The notes beneath the pieces were generated by a model. It made no database searches. It was not told the DNA's origin and worked only from the letters and a program-made list of their open reading frames with translations. 22,492 nucleotides of DNA from a virus: the IMG/VR virus record IMGVR_UViG_3300032053_008445, positions 1-22,492 of that record. The stretch is one strand, 5' to 3'. This document shows positions 5,668-14,110 of this stretch, piece after piece (within the stretch, counting starts at the first letter, position 1; every line of letters starts with the position of its first letter). Made by a program: the position numbers and the translations under genes.

Positions 5668-6435
5668 ATGGAAATAGATTTTCAAGCGATAGAGTTATAT
5701 TTAGATGCAAGAAAGAACAAAAAACACTTCATAAGTAGAAATCTAAAGACACCAATTTCTATAGAGCAAATGGGTGATATATATCAATTAGTTAAGACTT
5801 ATGGAAAAACTGAAGTAATGAAGCTGGTAGAGCCAGCACAATGCATAAGTCATAAAATAAGAACAGAAATTATTTGCGAGAAGTGTTCGTTCCTTTTTCA
5901 TAAAGATTGTGCAAAAACTTTATTTTTTTCTTACATAGAAACATTTTTTACAGATGACAAAGCAGAATCTGTAGATGAAAATTTTTTATGTAAAGAATGC
6001 CTAAGAAAACTTAAAGAAGACAAAAAAAATGATCATGAAAATCAGATCAAAAAAAGAGATGAGCTAGAAAAGGAAAATACACTGAAATACATAAATGTAT
6101 ATTTAAATCCTGAAAGTTCTTGGAATAAAGGTGTTAAAATTTCAGAAATGCTGGAATGTTTGCAGCGAGTTTTTGTTAATTGGAAAGATATAGCATTAAA
6201 AATAAAATCCATGAAGTATCAAGATTTTTTGAAAACTCCATACTGGAAAGCCATATCAAAAAAGAAAAAACTTCAGGCGGGATTTAAGTGCCAGCTTTGT
6301 AATCATTCAGAAAATCTAGCAACTCATCATAGAACATATGAAATACATGGAGACGAGCTGAATAATATGAAAGAATTGATAGTATTATGCGAAAGTTGCC
6401 ATAGTAAATTTCATGACAAAGATAGCGAATCATGA
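5668..6435 (+). CDS. HNH endonuclease with N-terminal PHD/RING-like zinc finger
   Basis: A 255-residue protein. The C-terminal ~70 residues are an HNH nuclease: YWKAISKKK, C208-x2-C211, the H220-H221 pair, a following Asn, C241-x2-C244 and H249. The N-terminal half carries another zinc-binding pattern, C59-x2-H62, C70-x2-C73, H78-x2-C81 and C108-x2-C111, whose order resembles a PHD/RING cross-brace. A lysine- and glutamate-rich helix (about 112-140) links the two. The gene looks more A/T-rich, with more A-runs, than the structural genes. It starts at ATG 5668 after AGAGAGGAATC, and its TGA overlaps the next ATG (ATGA). It may be a homing-type or genome-attack nuclease; specificity is unknown. 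Confidence 0.8.
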   Translation: MEIDFQAIELYLDARKNKKHFISRNLKTPISIEQMGDIYQLVKTYGKTEVMKLVEPAQCISHKIRTEIICEKCSFLFHKDCAKTLFFSYIETFFTDDKAESVDENFLCKECLRKLKEDKKNDHENQIKKRDELEKENTLKYINVYLNPESSWNKGVKISEMLECLQRVFVNWKDIALKIKSMKYQDFLKTPYWKAISKKKKLQAGFKCQLCNHSENLATHHRTYEIHGDELNNMKELIVLCESCHSKFHDKDSES

Positions 6436-8995: not shown

Positions 8996-9505
8996 ATGGG
9001 TACATCTGGAGTTCCTTTTAATATACCAAAACTAAGGATAATTGAAAGTATAAAAAAAAAGAAAGGCGTAGTTACACAAATATGCGCAGATTTAGATATT
9101 TCTTTCCCCACATATGCAAAACATATCAGAGATAACCCAGACTTAAAACAGGCCATCGATGACGCGCGGAACGATTTTGACACAACGATATGTGATATGG
9201 CGGAAACCGTTTTGATGCTGGCGATGAAGCAAAAAGACGACATGCCTTCCTCACTCAGTTCCGCAAAATTTGTCTTGAATAACAAAGGGCGAAATCGGGG
9301 ATATAACCCACCTACACAGGGAATAGAAAATAAGGATTGGGGTGTAAATGAATTGCTCAAGGGAATTAAAGGAGTTCTTGGCGACTCCGGAAGCAAAGGC
9401 CTTAGCGAGTCAGGAGTGGAGGTTAAACAACCTGTACCACATAGTGAGCAGAAACGGAAGCTCAATAAAGTTTCGGCTAAATCCAGTACAAAAAAAAGTA
9501 AATGA
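8996..9505 (+). CDS. Terminase small subunit-like protein
   Basis: A 169-residue protein. The N-terminal half has a helix-turn-helix: IIESIKKKKGVVTQICADLDISFPTYAKHIRDNPDLKQAIDDAR, the layout seen in phage TerS proteins, where HTH units recognise pac/cos DNA and recruit TerL. A middle helix (TICDMAETVLMLAMKQ) may oligomerise. The last ~50 residues are low-complexity and Lys/Ser-rich, ending KVSAKSSTKKSK, and are encoded within the 158-bp overlap with terL. AGGG upstream of ATG 8996 supports the start. Assignment rests on the HTH and on the gene directly preceding terL. Confidence 0.7.
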   Translation: MGTSGVPFNIPKLRIIESIKKKKGVVTQICADLDISFPTYAKHIRDNPDLKQAIDDARNDFDTTICDMAETVLMLAMKQKDDMPSSLSSAKFVLNNKGRNRGYNPPTQGIENKDWGVNELLKGIKGVLGDSGSKGLSESGVEVKQPVPHSEQKRKLNKVSAKSSTKKSK

Positions 9506-11933
9506 CGGTTTGCACTCTCGTAATCTAATTCTGAAAGCGAGGCAACTCGGCATGTCTACGTTTGCAGTCATTTATCTTCTCGATCAGGCTATATTCAATC
9601 CAAATTTATCCGCTGGAATTGTTAGCTACTCACTAGAACACGCTCAGCATATTTTCAAGCGCATAATAGGACACGCGTTAGATTCAATGCCCGATTGGGC
9701 ACAACCTCTAGCTCCTGTTATTCAGAGATCAGCTAGGGAGATTACGTTTAAAAACGGCTCATTCTTGCGCGTAGACACTACACTAAGAGGAGGAGCTTAT
9801 CAGCTAGTTTTGGTATCGGAGTACGGTAAAACGTGCGCTAGAAATCCGTTAAAAGCAGAAGAGGTAATCACAGGCACGCTACAAACCGTGCCAATCAATG
9901 GGCGTATTATTATCGAGAGTACGGGTGAAGGCAACTCAGGGTTTTACGCGGAGATGTGCCAGAATGCCGTAGCGCGAGGGAATGATAATTTAGCGTTGCT
10001 AGAATACAAAATGTTCTTTTTCCCCTGGTATCTAGAACTAGATTACCAAATGGATCAGGCCGTTAGCTATGGCGTAGAGCTAACAGACTACATGGCTAAG
10101 ATCGAAAAAGAAACGGGCGTTAACATAAGCCAAAAGCAACGGTATTGGTACGCACACCAAAAGAGCATTCTAGGCGAAAAGATAAAACAAGAATTTCCAT
10201 CCACCATTTCCGAGGCATTCCTATCCAGTTCAGATGCGTATTATTTCCAGCTCAGCATAGAGAAGGCATACCAGGACCATAGATGCTTACAAACTAACCC
10301 TTACGACCCATTGACCCACGTTTATGTAGCTATGGACATCGGAGTAAATGATTTGACGGTAATGGCATTCTTCCAGATAGTACACGGCGAAATAAGATTT
10401 ATTGACTACTACGAAGATAAAAATAAAGGCGTCGATTTCTATGCAAGATACCTCCAGCAAGATAAGAAATACCTATACCACACAATATTTCTACCACATG
10501 ACGCAGCTCATAGAGATGGCATTGTGGTTGAAAATACATACCAAAGAGACTTCCAACGGCTGTTTGCTCAAACGAACACTAAGTTTATTGTCCTCAAAAG
10601 AACCGATAAAAATCTCCAAATATCAAACGCTAAAATCAAATTCGATCGTTGCGTGTTTAACTTGTCTAGGGTGAAACCGTTCCTAGATCAGCTTGGCAAA
10701 TACCGTAAGAAATGGAGTGAACAATACGGAAAATACGAAGATAGTCCGCACCACGGGATTGAGTGCTTCATAGGAGAAACTTTAGTTGAAACAGATATAG
10801 GAGAAAAGAGAATCGATCAAATATCAATAGGAGATAAAGTTATAACACCCAATGGTTTAAGATTAGTTAAGAACGTATTTAAGCACAAAACAAAAGAGCT
10901 GATTATGATAGAAAAGGGAGACTCTTCTATCATTTGCACTCCACATCATAAGGTATTCACTAAAAAAGGATTGATAAAAGCTAGTTCATTGACATATAAT
11001 TCATATGTTCTTACCAAAAATGAGGAGGATATATGGAAACGAATTGGATTGAGTGGAGAGGAGAAAGGGTTAGGATTCAAGGATTATTTCGTATTAATGA
11101 GTCAGGGACAATTATCTTCTTTGATGGGTACAAATACAAATTACACAAGTGCGGATATTATAGAGGAGCAAAGTACGGTGGATTGCATCGGCATATGTGG
11201 GCCTTCTATAACGGAGAAGTTCCTGAAAGCCATCACATTCATCATATCGATGGGAACCCAAAAAATAATGACATTTCAAACCTGCAATGCTTGCCAGGGG
11301 ATGAACATCTCAAAATGCACAACAAAATTTGGGCGCGCAGTGAAGAAGGACAAAGATGTCTTAAGAAACGAATTCAAAGTATGTTGGATAAAAGAGAGCT
11401 CCTTAAAAAAACATGTCGAATATGCAGTAAGAATTATGAAACCGTACATCCTTGGTCTTTTTTATGTTCGGCCAATTGCAATACAAAGTCCCGTACATTA
11501 TCAAGAAAAGATTTTGAATCAAGAACCTGTATCCAATGCTTTTCGGAGTATCAATGCAATAAATACAGCGATCAAAAACTCTGCTCCTCAAAGTGTGCCG
11601 ATAAGATTAGGTGGGCAAATCGAGAAAGAGCATCCACAATCAAAACCTGCGAAGAGTGCGGAAAAGAATTCGACCGAAAGAGACATCCTAAAGTCAGGAC
11701 ATGTTCTAAAAGTTGTGGAGTTAAATTTGGACACAGAAGTAGACGTCTACGATCTCGAAGTTGAATGCGATCACTGCTACTTTGCCAATGGCATTTTAGT
11801 AAGCAACTCCAACTACGCAGATTGTTTTCAGTATTGCTGTTCCGCCGTTACGCATGTGGAGGCTGTTGGGGACATGAAAGGGGCTTTACAAAAGCACAAA
11901 GAGATAGTTGAAAACAGAAGATTAAAAATATAA
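9348..11933 (+). CDS. terL: Large terminase subunit with an in-frame intein
   Basis: An 861-residue precursor; the extein alone is ~513 residues, normal for TerL. ATPase: an ELKEFLATPEAKALASQEWR-type N-terminus, Walker A LKARQLGMST (62-71), Walker B LVLVSE with Glu158, and coupling motif IIESTGEG (188-195). Nuclease: YVAMDIG with Asp330, HDAAHRD, and the final ADCFQY motif with Asp825. TerL pumps DNA into the prohead and cuts it. The conserved block PHHGIE..SNYADCFQY is interrupted by a 348-residue intein (Cys473-Asn820), so packaging activity requires splicing. Start ATG 9348 lies 158 bp inside the TerS gene, with GGGG upstream; the conserved N-terminus begins there. Confidence 0.92.
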   Translation: MNCSRELKEFLATPEAKALASQEWRLNNLYHIVSRNGSSIKFRLNPVQKKVNDGLHSRNLILKARQLGMSTFAVIYLLDQAIFNPNLSAGIVSYSLEHAQHIFKRIIGHALDSMPDWAQPLAPVIQRSAREITFKNGSFLRVDTTLRGGAYQLVLVSEYGKTCARNPLKAEEVITGTLQTVPINGRIIIESTGEGNSGFYAEMCQNAVARGNDNLALLEYKMFFFPWYLELDYQMDQAVSYGVELTDYMAKIEKETGVNISQKQRYWYAHQKSILGEKIKQEFPSTISEAFLSSSDAYYFQLSIEKAYQDHRCLQTNPYDPLTHVYVAMDIGVNDLTVMAFFQIVHGEIRFIDYYEDKNKGVDFYARYLQQDKKYLYHTIFLPHDAAHRDGIVVENTYQRDFQRLFAQTNTKFIVLKRTDKNLQISNAKIKFDRCVFNLSRVKPFLDQLGKYRKKWSEQYGKYEDSPHHGIECFIGETLVETDIGEKRIDQISIGDKVITPNGLRLVKNVFKHKTKELIMIEKGDSSIICTPHHKVFTKKGLIKASSLTYNSYVLTKNEEDIWKRIGLSGEEKGLGFKDYFVLMSQGQLSSLMGTNTNYTSADIIEEQSTVDCIGICGPSITEKFLKAITFIISMGTQKIMTFQTCNACQGMNISKCTTKFGRAVKKDKDVLRNEFKVCWIKESSLKKHVEYAVRIMKPYILGLFYVRPIAIQSPVHYQEKILNQEPVSNAFRSINAINTAIKNSAPQSVPIRLGGQIEKEHPQSKPAKSAEKNSTERDILKSGHVLKVVELNLDTEVDVYDLEVECDHCYFANGILVSNSNYADCFQYCCSAVTHVEAVGDMKGALQKHKEIVENRRLKI
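10764..11807 (+). mobile_element. Intein in TerL
   Basis: The intein runs from Cys473 (TGC at 10764) to Asn820 (AAC at 11805-11807), followed by Ser821. Splicing blocks: block A CFIGETLVETDIGEKRIDQI, a GDKV strand, block B CTPHHKVFTKKG (the T-x-x-H motif), block F VYDLEVECDHCYFANG, block G ILVSN then Ser. The penultimate residue is Ser rather than the usual His. The Hint parts (about 10764-11020 and 11700-11807) total ~120 residues, the size of a mini-intein. The ~225 codons between them show no endonuclease in this frame, but are the shadow of an HNH gene in another frame (11033-11764). Insertion is in the conserved nuclease motif, a known kind of intein site. Confidence 0.93.
11033..11764 (+). 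CDS. HNH homing endonuclease nested out of frame inside the intein
   Basis: A 243-residue protein in a different frame from terL, with its own AGGAGG (11023-11028) 4 bases before the ATG. Residues 45-95 form an HNH fold: GGLHRHMWAFYN, SHHIHHIDGNPKNNDISNL, then a terminal EHLKMH. Residues ~120-243 carry three tandem Cys motifs of the form C-x2-C ... C-x3-C (TCRIC / LCSANC; TCIQC / LCSSKC; TCEEC / TCSKSC), likely zinc fingers for site recognition. Presumed role: cut intein-less terL and drive intein homing. Its last ~65 bp overlap intein block F, so that stretch must satisfy two reading frames. Motifs are clear; activity is inferred. Confidence 0.9.
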   Translation: METNWIEWRGERVRIQGLFRINESGTIIFFDGYKYKLHKCGYYRGAKYGGLHRHMWAFYNGEVPESHHIHHIDGNPKNNDISNLQCLPGDEHLKMHNKIWARSEEGQRCLKKRIQSMLDKRELLKKTCRICSKNYETVHPWSFLCSANCNTKSRTLSRKDFESRTCIQCFSEYQCNKYSDQKLCSSKCADKIRWANRERASTIKTCEECGKEFDRKRHPKVRTCSKSCGVKFGHRSRRLRSRS

Positions 11934-11968
11934 GTGCTATATATCTTTTATTTCGTTAAATTTCAGAC

Positions 11969-14110
11969 ATGCTTACAAGAACTGAAATATGGTCCGAGTT
12001 CCAAGAAAATTATAGGTACGCTCACGACTATTGGTCGCCATTCGTCACCAACGCACAGGTTTATACCTTGGCTTCATCTGGATACACTTGGAGCAATCAA
12101 GAGCTAGAATCACTTGTTAAGGAAGGTCGAGAGCCACTTGAATTAAATATCATGCGCAGACCTCTTCAGTTTTTCTCTGGCTATCTTCGCGACAACCTGA
12201 ATTCTATCGTCATTGCTCCAGTTGAGGGCAGCGATCAAGCTACGGCCGATCAAATGACAAAGCTATCCTACTACACGTGGGATAAAGGCGAGGGGTATAC
12301 AACATTTTTAGACGCCGCCGATGAGATGATGAAATCAGGAATTTCGCTTGTAGGAATTCAGATGGACTATTCCAGGGATTTTATTAATGGGGATATATCC
12401 TTTTTTAAGCGGACTTTTAACCAATTTTACCTTGATCCTACGTTTGAGCGAATAGACCTGCGAGACTGCGCCTTTTCCATAACTCGAGATCTTTTAGACC
12501 GCAATTTTATTAAACAGCTTCTCCCCTTCATTGATCCAAATGAAATTGACGACATACAAAACTCATTTAGGGACGACAAATTTCTATCATACCACCCCAA
12601 TTTTACCTCTTTGAGTCGCAACCGAAACTTGATGGCGTATGACCAATATTATAAACGCACTACAAGAAAGCGCAAATTTCTTGTGGATGAGCAATCCTCT
12701 TTTTATCGAGACATTACAGATCTTAGCGATGACGATGTAAAAACTCTAAAAATGGGGATAGGCAGGCTTAAAAGTATTAGAGAAGATGCCTCCTCAATGG
12801 ATGTGGATCAGAATAACTTGCCTCCAATTCTAGAGATCCGTGAAGAGAACCGGCCGTTTGTAGAACTCCACATTATGCTTAACGGTCAGGAAGTTTATAA
12901 CGGCGAAGACAAGACCGGAATCGTTGAGACATATCCTTTCTGCCCTCTGATATGTTATATGGAACCATCAATCTGGATGCCATCGCAGCGCATACAAGGG
13001 ATCGCATCATCACTCTATTCAGCTCAGCGACAGTTTAATAAGCGTCACATGAAAATCGTCGACATGATGGATTCCAACATCTCGACTGGATACAAATATA
13101 TGATCGGCTCCGTGGCCGATCCTCAAGATTTACAGCAATCCGGACAGAATAAATTAATCGGAATAGATCCCGAAAACGCTCCTGCCGGAATGGATTCAGT
13201 ACAACAGCTCGAGGGGGGCGGTACGAATCCAGCTTTGATCGAATATCAGGCAGTACTAGATCAATTAACTCTCACGTTGGCGAACGTTAATGAATCCGTG
13301 CTTGGTGTTGATGATAAGGGTAACACACAGGTCTCAGGAAGACTCGCGCAAGTGCGAATCGCTCAGGGCCTTCGCTCCAACAGAAAGATCTTTGACAACA
13401 TAGAGTTAAGCCAAAAAGTGCTTGGCGGACTCGTTCTCAAAGCCATTCAACTACATATGCCCTCTGGAAAAGTAGAGAGAATTATAGGAGAAAAACCAAC
13501 AGAGCAGTTTTATGAGAAAGATTTTGAGCAATATGATGCTGTTATCAAAGAGGGTGTCCGTTCTCAATCTCAAAGAGATGCCTACTACTACGAACTCGTT
13601 TCTCTTAAACGCGAAGGCATTGTTGACGTACCTCAAACGGAAATTGTCCGCGCGCTACAGATGGCTGGCCTTGATGATCTCAAAAAAGCTATCGAACAGC
13701 AACAAGAGCAGACTAGCCAAGCTCAACAAATGGCAGCTAAAAAAGAAATGATGGAAATTGAGTTACTTAATGCAACTAAAGAAGAGAAGCTCGGACTGGC
13801 ACAAGAACGACGATCACGTGTTATCAGCAACCTGGCTCTTAAAGATGAACGCGAAAGCGAGGCGCAACAAAACATAGCGCAGGCTGCTTTAGATAGAGCT
13901 AAGACGATTACAGAAATAGCAAAAATGCACGACGACCGAATTTTGCAAGTGCTGGCGTTCGTAAATCAGCTTGAGCAGCAAGAGGCAGTAGCTCGAGAGA
14001 TGCAAAAACAACAAGTGGAAAATCAGTCCGATAAGATCAATGTCGATACCGAAGGATCAGCGGAAAACAAGCAAGCTTTACAAGCTGCTCAGCCCCCTGC
14101 TTTAGGGTAA
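11969..14110 (+). CDS. Portal protein (P22-like)
   Basis: A 713-residue protein, close to the P22 portal (725). The N-terminal region EIWSEFQENYRYAHDYWSPF..., EPLELNIMRRPLQFFSGYLRDN, and the middle PFCPLICYMEPSIWMPSQRIQGIASSLYSAQRQFNKRH are typical of podovirus portals. VSGRLAQVRIAQGLRS precedes the tunnel region. The last ~150 residues are a long Gln/Glu/Lys-rich coiled coil (EQQQEQTSQAQQMAAKKEMM...), like the P22 barrel. It forms the dodecameric DNA entry ring at one capsid vertex and docks TerL, encoded just upstream. There is no strong Shine-Dalgarno before ATG 11969. Confidence 0.88.
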   Translation: MLTRTEIWSEFQENYRYAHDYWSPFVTNAQVYTLASSGYTWSNQELESLVKEGREPLELNIMRRPLQFFSGYLRDNLNSIVIAPVEGSDQATADQMTKLSYYTWDKGEGYTTFLDAADEMMKSGISLVGIQMDYSRDFINGDISFFKRTFNQFYLDPTFERIDLRDCAFSITRDLLDRNFIKQLLPFIDPNEIDDIQNSFRDDKFLSYHPNFTSLSRNRNLMAYDQYYKRTTRKRKFLVDEQSSFYRDITDLSDDDVKTLKMGIGRLKSIREDASSMDVDQNNLPPILEIREENRPFVELHIMLNGQEVYNGEDKTGIVETYPFCPLICYMEPSIWMPSQRIQGIASSLYSAQRQFNKRHMKIVDMMDSNISTGYKYMIGSVADPQDLQQSGQNKLIGIDPENAPAGMDSVQQLEGGGTNPALIEYQAVLDQLTLTLANVNESVLGVDDKGNTQVSGRLAQVRIAQGLRSNRKIFDNIELSQKVLGGLVLKAIQLHMPSGKVERIIGEKPTEQFYEKDFEQYDAVIKEGVRSQSQRDAYYYELVSLKREGIVDVPQTEIVRALQMAGLDDLKKAIEQQQEQTSQAQQMAAKKEMMEIELLNATKEEKLGLAQERRSRVISNLALKDERESEAQQNIAQAALDRAKTITEIAKMHDDRILQVLAFVNQLEQQEAVAREMQKQQVENQSDKINVDTEGSAENKQALQAAQPPALG

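Follow-up and report, generated by a model that had tools for sequence, protein, structure and literature searches.

Canonical HNH inteins combine a Hint splicing domain with an HNH homing nuclease that is a domain of the intein itself. In another arrangement, reportedly described by Dassa and colleagues in 2009 (cited in PMC10448857), fractured phage genes carry split inteins with a separate endonuclease gene between the intein halves. I-HmuI, an endonuclease with an HNH domain and added DNA-binding parts, is intron-encoded and not overprinted. An in-frame HNH has been reported for the CL131 dCTP deaminase intein (PMC6293099). The nearest published element is the ShiLan domain, a sporadically distributed insertion in a phage methylase gene that leaves the host frame without stops and has an HNH nuclease with zinc fingers encoded at +2; its authors find no splicing domain of an intein or intron and propose that the methylase retains it (Arsenault, Gosselin and Gogarten, 2025; PMC11855218). 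No ribosome binding site was found for the ShiLan nuclease (PMC11855218). Overlapping frames in actinobacteriophage inteins are suggested by the title of a preprint (“Non-Canonical Architecture”; Gosselin et al., bioRxiv 2025, 10.1101/2025.01.02.630785) and by its citation in PMC11855218, the only parts of that source on which we draw.

Here, we analyzed a stretch of viral DNA of 22,492 nucleotides (“the window”; IMG/VR record IMGVR_UViG_3300032053_008445, positions 1 to 22,492) in which the large terminase subunit gene, terL, contains an intein whose linker is overprinted by an HNH gene. Unlike ShiLan, the insertion has Hint halves flanking the HNH gene and a Shine-Dalgarno (SD) sequence. It also differs from split inteins in fractured genes, since the whole intein forms a single polypeptide, with the endonuclease gene overlapping its linker region, and from canonical HNH inteins, since the nuclease is a separate +2-frame protein that is not fused in frame. 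We found no description of an intein with an overprinted endonuclease in the literature searched, and priority remains uncertain given the preprint of Gosselin et al.

The terL open reading frame (9348-11933) is uninterrupted over 861 codons (Table 1). The bounds of the intein within it are exact (10764-11807): 348 codons with zero stops, Cys first and Ser-Asn last, followed by Ser+1. Pfam Intein_splicing (PF14890) matches the intein with an E-value of 9.9e-12, with the halves at both ends of the insert and the match reaching residue 348. The sequence and fold features of a class 1 Hint intein are all present, namely the position-1 Cys, the block-B TxxH, a C-terminal Asn followed by Ser, and Hint sequence and fold. 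C1, T59 and H62 are invariant across 47 relatives and N348 is invariant among relatives; the penultimate residue is Ser instead of the usual His, and this Ser is common to many relatives. AlphaFold2 models of the intein frame, built from alignments without rows from GenBank phage records, have pLDDT values of 91-98 for residues 1-80, 85 for residues 81-90 and 89-97 for residues 311-348, and of only about 38-61 for the linker of about 220 residues. The best match among solved structures is the gp41-1 intein (6qaz, E 1.6e-7), a likeness to the split type. The joined exteins (...YGKYLDEPYHDIS followed by SNYADCFQYCC..., with YHDIS meeting SNYAD at the junction) align without gaps to relatives with an empty site. 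From its first ATG, the terL frame overlaps a preceding 169-aa open reading frame in another frame by 158 nt (9348-9505); the true start may be later, because in many relatives the match begins only at residue 15-19.

Table 1. Features of the terL locus in the window, and related loci with interrupted inteins.
Feature	Position or locus	Strand	Evidence
TerL N-extein (ATPase and most of nuclease domain)	9348..10763	+	PHROG terminase large subunit matches
IntN, intein residues 1-90; Cys1, block B T59-x-x-H62	10764..11033	+	Pfam Intein_splicing; AlphaFold2 pLDDT
SD sequence AGGAGG of HNH gene, within intein coding sequence	11023..11028	+	Sequence; 4 nt ahead of ATG
HNH homing-endonuclease gene, +2 frame, 243 aa, ATG-GAA start, TGA stop	11033..11764	+	Pfam, PHROG, AlphaFold2, dN/dS
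Intein linker in TerL frame: open, near-neutral, low-confidence/disordered, HNH gene overprinted	11034..11693	+	pLDDT, dN/dS, stop counts
HNH_3 domain (H70, H71, D73, N78, N79, N83, H92); CxxC zinc ribbons downstream	11183..11308	+	Pfam, stretch 51-92
IntC, intein residues 311-348, ending ...FANGILVSN	11694..11807	+	Pfam; pLDDT 89-97; N348 invariant
TerL C-extein including stop codon; Ser+1 (SNYADCFQYCC), around nuclease catalytic Asp motif	11808..11933	+	Extein-join alignment
Interrupted, probably split inteins, same TerL site and HNH family	L003, L004, L027, L034, L041, L051, L053		
Interrupted, probably split inteins, same TerL site and HNH family	L059, L066, L067, L080, L086, L104		
Interrupted, probably split intein, same TerL site and HNH family	L018 (Vibrio phage 1.245.O)		

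The original prediction placed an out-of-frame HNH/zinc-finger gene with its own AGGAGG inside the open terL frame, and the gene is confirmed at the +2 offset. Its product matches HNH_3 in Pfam (E 2.3e-15) and HNH in PHROG (E 1e-25). The HNH_3 residues listed in Table 1, together with C128, C131, C145 and C149, are invariant among 41 relatives; the HNH motif and the zinc-binding cysteines are intact. The AlphaFold2 model of this frame has a mean pLDDT of 85.7, and its best fold match is a weak one to I-HmuI (1u3e, E 6.7e-3). A Pfam search of the intein frame itself yielded no match of the linker to a nuclease family. Elsewhere in the window, a further gene (5668-6435) carries an HNH-like domain at its C-terminal end (PHROG E 1.8e-8), and RecE-, RecT- and resolvase-like proteins are likewise encoded.

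The same arrangement was then sought in other TerL inteins. HNH searches covered viral contigs, phage records and genome contigs, and the loci recovered were sorted with IntN and IntC profile HMMs; the collection scan relied on HNH alignments, the intein alignment (A1) being too divergent. The overprinted layout (IntN and IntC in one frame, stop-free, with HNH at +2) occurs in 51 distinct viral loci and a further 13 loci in genome contigs, giving 64, and three more alleles with HNH at +2 and zero stops were found among close TerL relatives (L203, L212 and L239). It is thus a recurrent class and not a one-off. Genome-contig labels include Methyloceanibacter, Nitrospiraceae, Clostridium, a Thermoplasmatales archaeon and Nitrosotalea; the hosts are uncertain because these contigs come from metagenome bins. 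Named members are Tetrasphaera phage TJE1, Acinetobacter phage Highwayman and Rhodobacteraceae phage LS06-2018-MD07, in whose records terL is annotated and the HNH gene is not. In nearly all members the insertion site lies in the TerL nuclease motif (D/N-H|C...N|C-x-D-A-x-R-Y). One Clostridium TerL (L142:1331-4735) contains two overprinted inteins in two different active-site motifs, which on our reading of the sequence would be the Walker B and nuclease motif I regions. Additional in-frame intein-like insertions accompany the overprinted intein in the TerL of L131 and L143.

Selection on the two frames was compared in the three usable pairs, L001-L002, L024-L025 and L069-L071. Values of dN/dS for the HNH frame are 0.17, 0.13 and 0.10, respectively (0.17 for the window), and those for the intein frame are 0.85, 1.01 and 1.04 (about 0.85 for the window linker). 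Linkers resemble one another only slightly more than do synonymous recodings (mean z 0.39 over 346 pairs). Given this small excess and the contrast in dN/dS, what is conserved is the HNH protein, through purifying selection; the intein frame stays open with nearly free content, and selection on it acts mainly against stop codons. The expectation of a mini-intein with a large, otherwise meaningless linker is therefore upheld: only the Hint halves are structured by confidence, and the linker combines low pLDDT with dN/dS near 1.

One alternative is that the linker is a functional domain whose frame is also kept for its content. The slight excess similarity could be read in this way, as could third-position change, which is somewhat lower in the overlap than in the extein. 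We nonetheless consider it very improbable in the face of near-neutral dN/dS in the intein frame and low model confidence, and most of the similarity between linkers is an echo of HNH coding. A conserved linker domain had been entertained as a candidate and was dropped after the dN/dS comparison and the echo test against synonymous recodings; what looks like linker conservation in alignment A1 (GxIIxGKFxK...) is the HNH motif seen in the other frame.

How the HNH protein is produced is inferred from its start region. A TGA at 11021-11023 closes the HNH frame upstream, which makes initiation at the gene's own start the plausible route. Across the family, 59% of HNH starts follow a suitably spaced SD match of at least four bases; for the other ATGs within the inteins the figure is 9% (p 3e-15). 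This agrees with the predicted separate endonuclease gene, encoded in another frame with a start and a ribosome site of its own. Ribosomal frameshifting from IntN could instead deliver the HNH product: there is an A-run ahead of the junction, and no clear SD is present in L002 and in about 40% of overprinted members. We regard this as quite improbable, since the upstream TGA leaves only three codons in which a shift could occur and SD sequences are so strongly enriched at HNH starts.

The original prediction also held that the intein frame is kept open by selection, from a chance of (61/64)^225, or 2e-5, of meeting no stop in 225 codons. That estimate ignores the constraint of HNH coding, and the odds for the window come to about 1 in 600 instead of 1 in 50,000. 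When its own synonymous HNH codons are shuffled with the protein kept, a mean of 3.7 intein-frame stops arise and the probability of zero is 0.00175; with the codon usage of the locus, 6.0 are expected against none seen (p < 0.001). For this single window the evidence for stop depletion is good but not overwhelming. With the family added, it is beyond doubt, and selection for openness stands. Across the HNH genes of the 51 viral members, the intein frame contains 0 stops against 134 expected with own codons shuffled and 242 with locus codon usage, while the third frame has 1186 against 1134 expected. Members from genome contigs show 0 against 29 expected. Free-standing HNH genes of the same family serve as a control and have 99 stops against 103 expected. 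Because the overprinted set was selected for zero stops, the weight of this evidence lies in the controls and in the gap between zero and at least five, not in the bare count: non-overprinted loci with the same frame relation have 5-13 stops each, and none has 1-4. The counts are not independent, because the members are related.

Homologs with stops in the intein frame would have spoken against the original prediction, and such loci do exist. In 21 related loci the same HNH lies between IntN and IntC with 4-34 stops in the N frame; they resemble split inteins, and most of those checked for it, a set without L018, have a start and an SD for IntC. Their HNH genes contain 121 stops against 123 expected, and with no depletion they act as a control rather than a refutation. 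These loci do lend some support to reading the window itself as a split intein in a fractured gene, with IntN and IntC as separate proteins and the open linker accidental. We find this highly improbable: stops are at expectation in the split loci and absent from the class to which the window belongs, and its terL is one 861-codon frame rather than separate ones. The frame relation of the overprinted class is kept in 9 of the 21 split loci (p 2e-4 if independent), which only suggests that split and overprinted forms interconvert.

A formerly in-frame HNH could also have been shifted by a pair of indels or by sequencing error, leaving a decayed canonical intein of no functional meaning. In-frame HNH inteins do occur, as in CL131 and, within the searched set, in L113 and L169, both in ribonucleotide reductases. 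Decay is barely tenable, however: more than 60 loci, whose HNH sequences are about 30% identical, share the offset and the open frame; the HNH gene begins and ends on signals of its own and has an SD; dN/dS in the HNH frame is 0.10-0.17; stop depletion is complete; and both frames are conserved among distant phages. We give almost no credence to a self-splicing intron removed at the RNA level, even though phage group I introns frequently carry HNH genes, as there is no Rfam match at any E-value up to 1 in 10400-12200, Hint motifs and fold are present, and an intron has no need of an open frame.

Overprinting is not confined to one frame or one nuclease. In a TerL intein from a Planctomycetota bin (L130:2923-3441), the HNH lies in the rarer frame, with 0 stops against 7.9 expected, and the usual frame has 6 against 5.3 expected. 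In a clamp-loader AAA+ intein (L112:1110-3218), the gene of a zinc-finger DUF559 nuclease (E 2.1e-11), with its own SD, is overprinted on the linker in the other (+1) frame, and there are 0 stops against 17.6-19.7 expected. The latter is a second, independent kind of overprinted intein; a search for its homologs gave one additional partial match and no further family. With both of these in the other frame, it is very likely that overprinting arose more than once. On the HNH tree the overprinted label must change 12 times, and well-supported branches force at least three of these changes. A single origin was considered and is disfavored by these changes; most deep branches are weak, leaving the direction and number of origins unsettled. 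In the common frame, intein codons take HNH codon positions 2, 3 and 1, and stops can form only where xTA is followed by R or xTG by A across a codon junction. Purging stops is therefore cheap, which may explain why this stop-poor frame dominates.

The distribution of the intein is sporadic. Among 80 viral TerL relatives (60-81% identical), 71 have an empty site, five are occupied and four are cut off or atypical. Intein carriers are L186 (the L002 contig), L203, L212 and L239, and L211 ends inside an intein. Sporadic presence at a conserved insertion site, a mark of HNH homing endonucleases, is borne out by these alignments; homing and cleavage of empty sites are inferred. In the HNH tree, the Highwayman HNH clusters with one from the related Acinetobacter phage BP10 that stands alone ahead of terS. 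Free-standing relatives of the HNH gene lie directly next to terminase genes in L019 and L020/L021, before terS in BP10 and after terL in Pseudomonas phages.

We consider a homing intein with an overprinted endonuclease to be the best explanation of the locus and hold it with considerable confidence, although splicing, HNH synthesis, cleavage and homing are all inferred. TerL, IntN, linker, IntC and the remainder of TerL would be translated as a single polypeptide. From the anatomy, the Hint halves would fold, the 220-residue linker would loop out, and the intein would excise itself, restoring the TerL nuclease active site. Other ribosomes, as the SD and selection imply, would initiate via the AGGAGG located where IntN meets the linker and translate the +2 frame into a free HNH/zinc-ribbon nuclease. 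This nuclease may then cut intein-less TerL genes, with repair copying the intein in.

For the wider class, we lean, by a modest degree only, towards a picture in which overprinted inteins are widespread, repeatedly evolved and undescribed. They would have content-free linkers, occur in bacterial and probably archaeal viruses, where they occupy several active-site positions of TerL as well as a clamp loader, use at least two nuclease families in both alternative frames, and interconvert with split inteins. Overprinting would be a third way for an intein to carry an endonuclease, besides fusion and splitting, and apparent mini-inteins with long meaningless linkers would be explained as complete mobile elements. 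One stretch of DNA does two jobs here, and gene annotation misses this arrangement. These loci supply many natural examples of long genes that overlap on the same strand, with openness the sole demand on one of the two frames; they are a clean system for measuring the cost of overprinting. With split and overprinted forms found side by side at one site, ideas on how split inteins arose can be put to the test.
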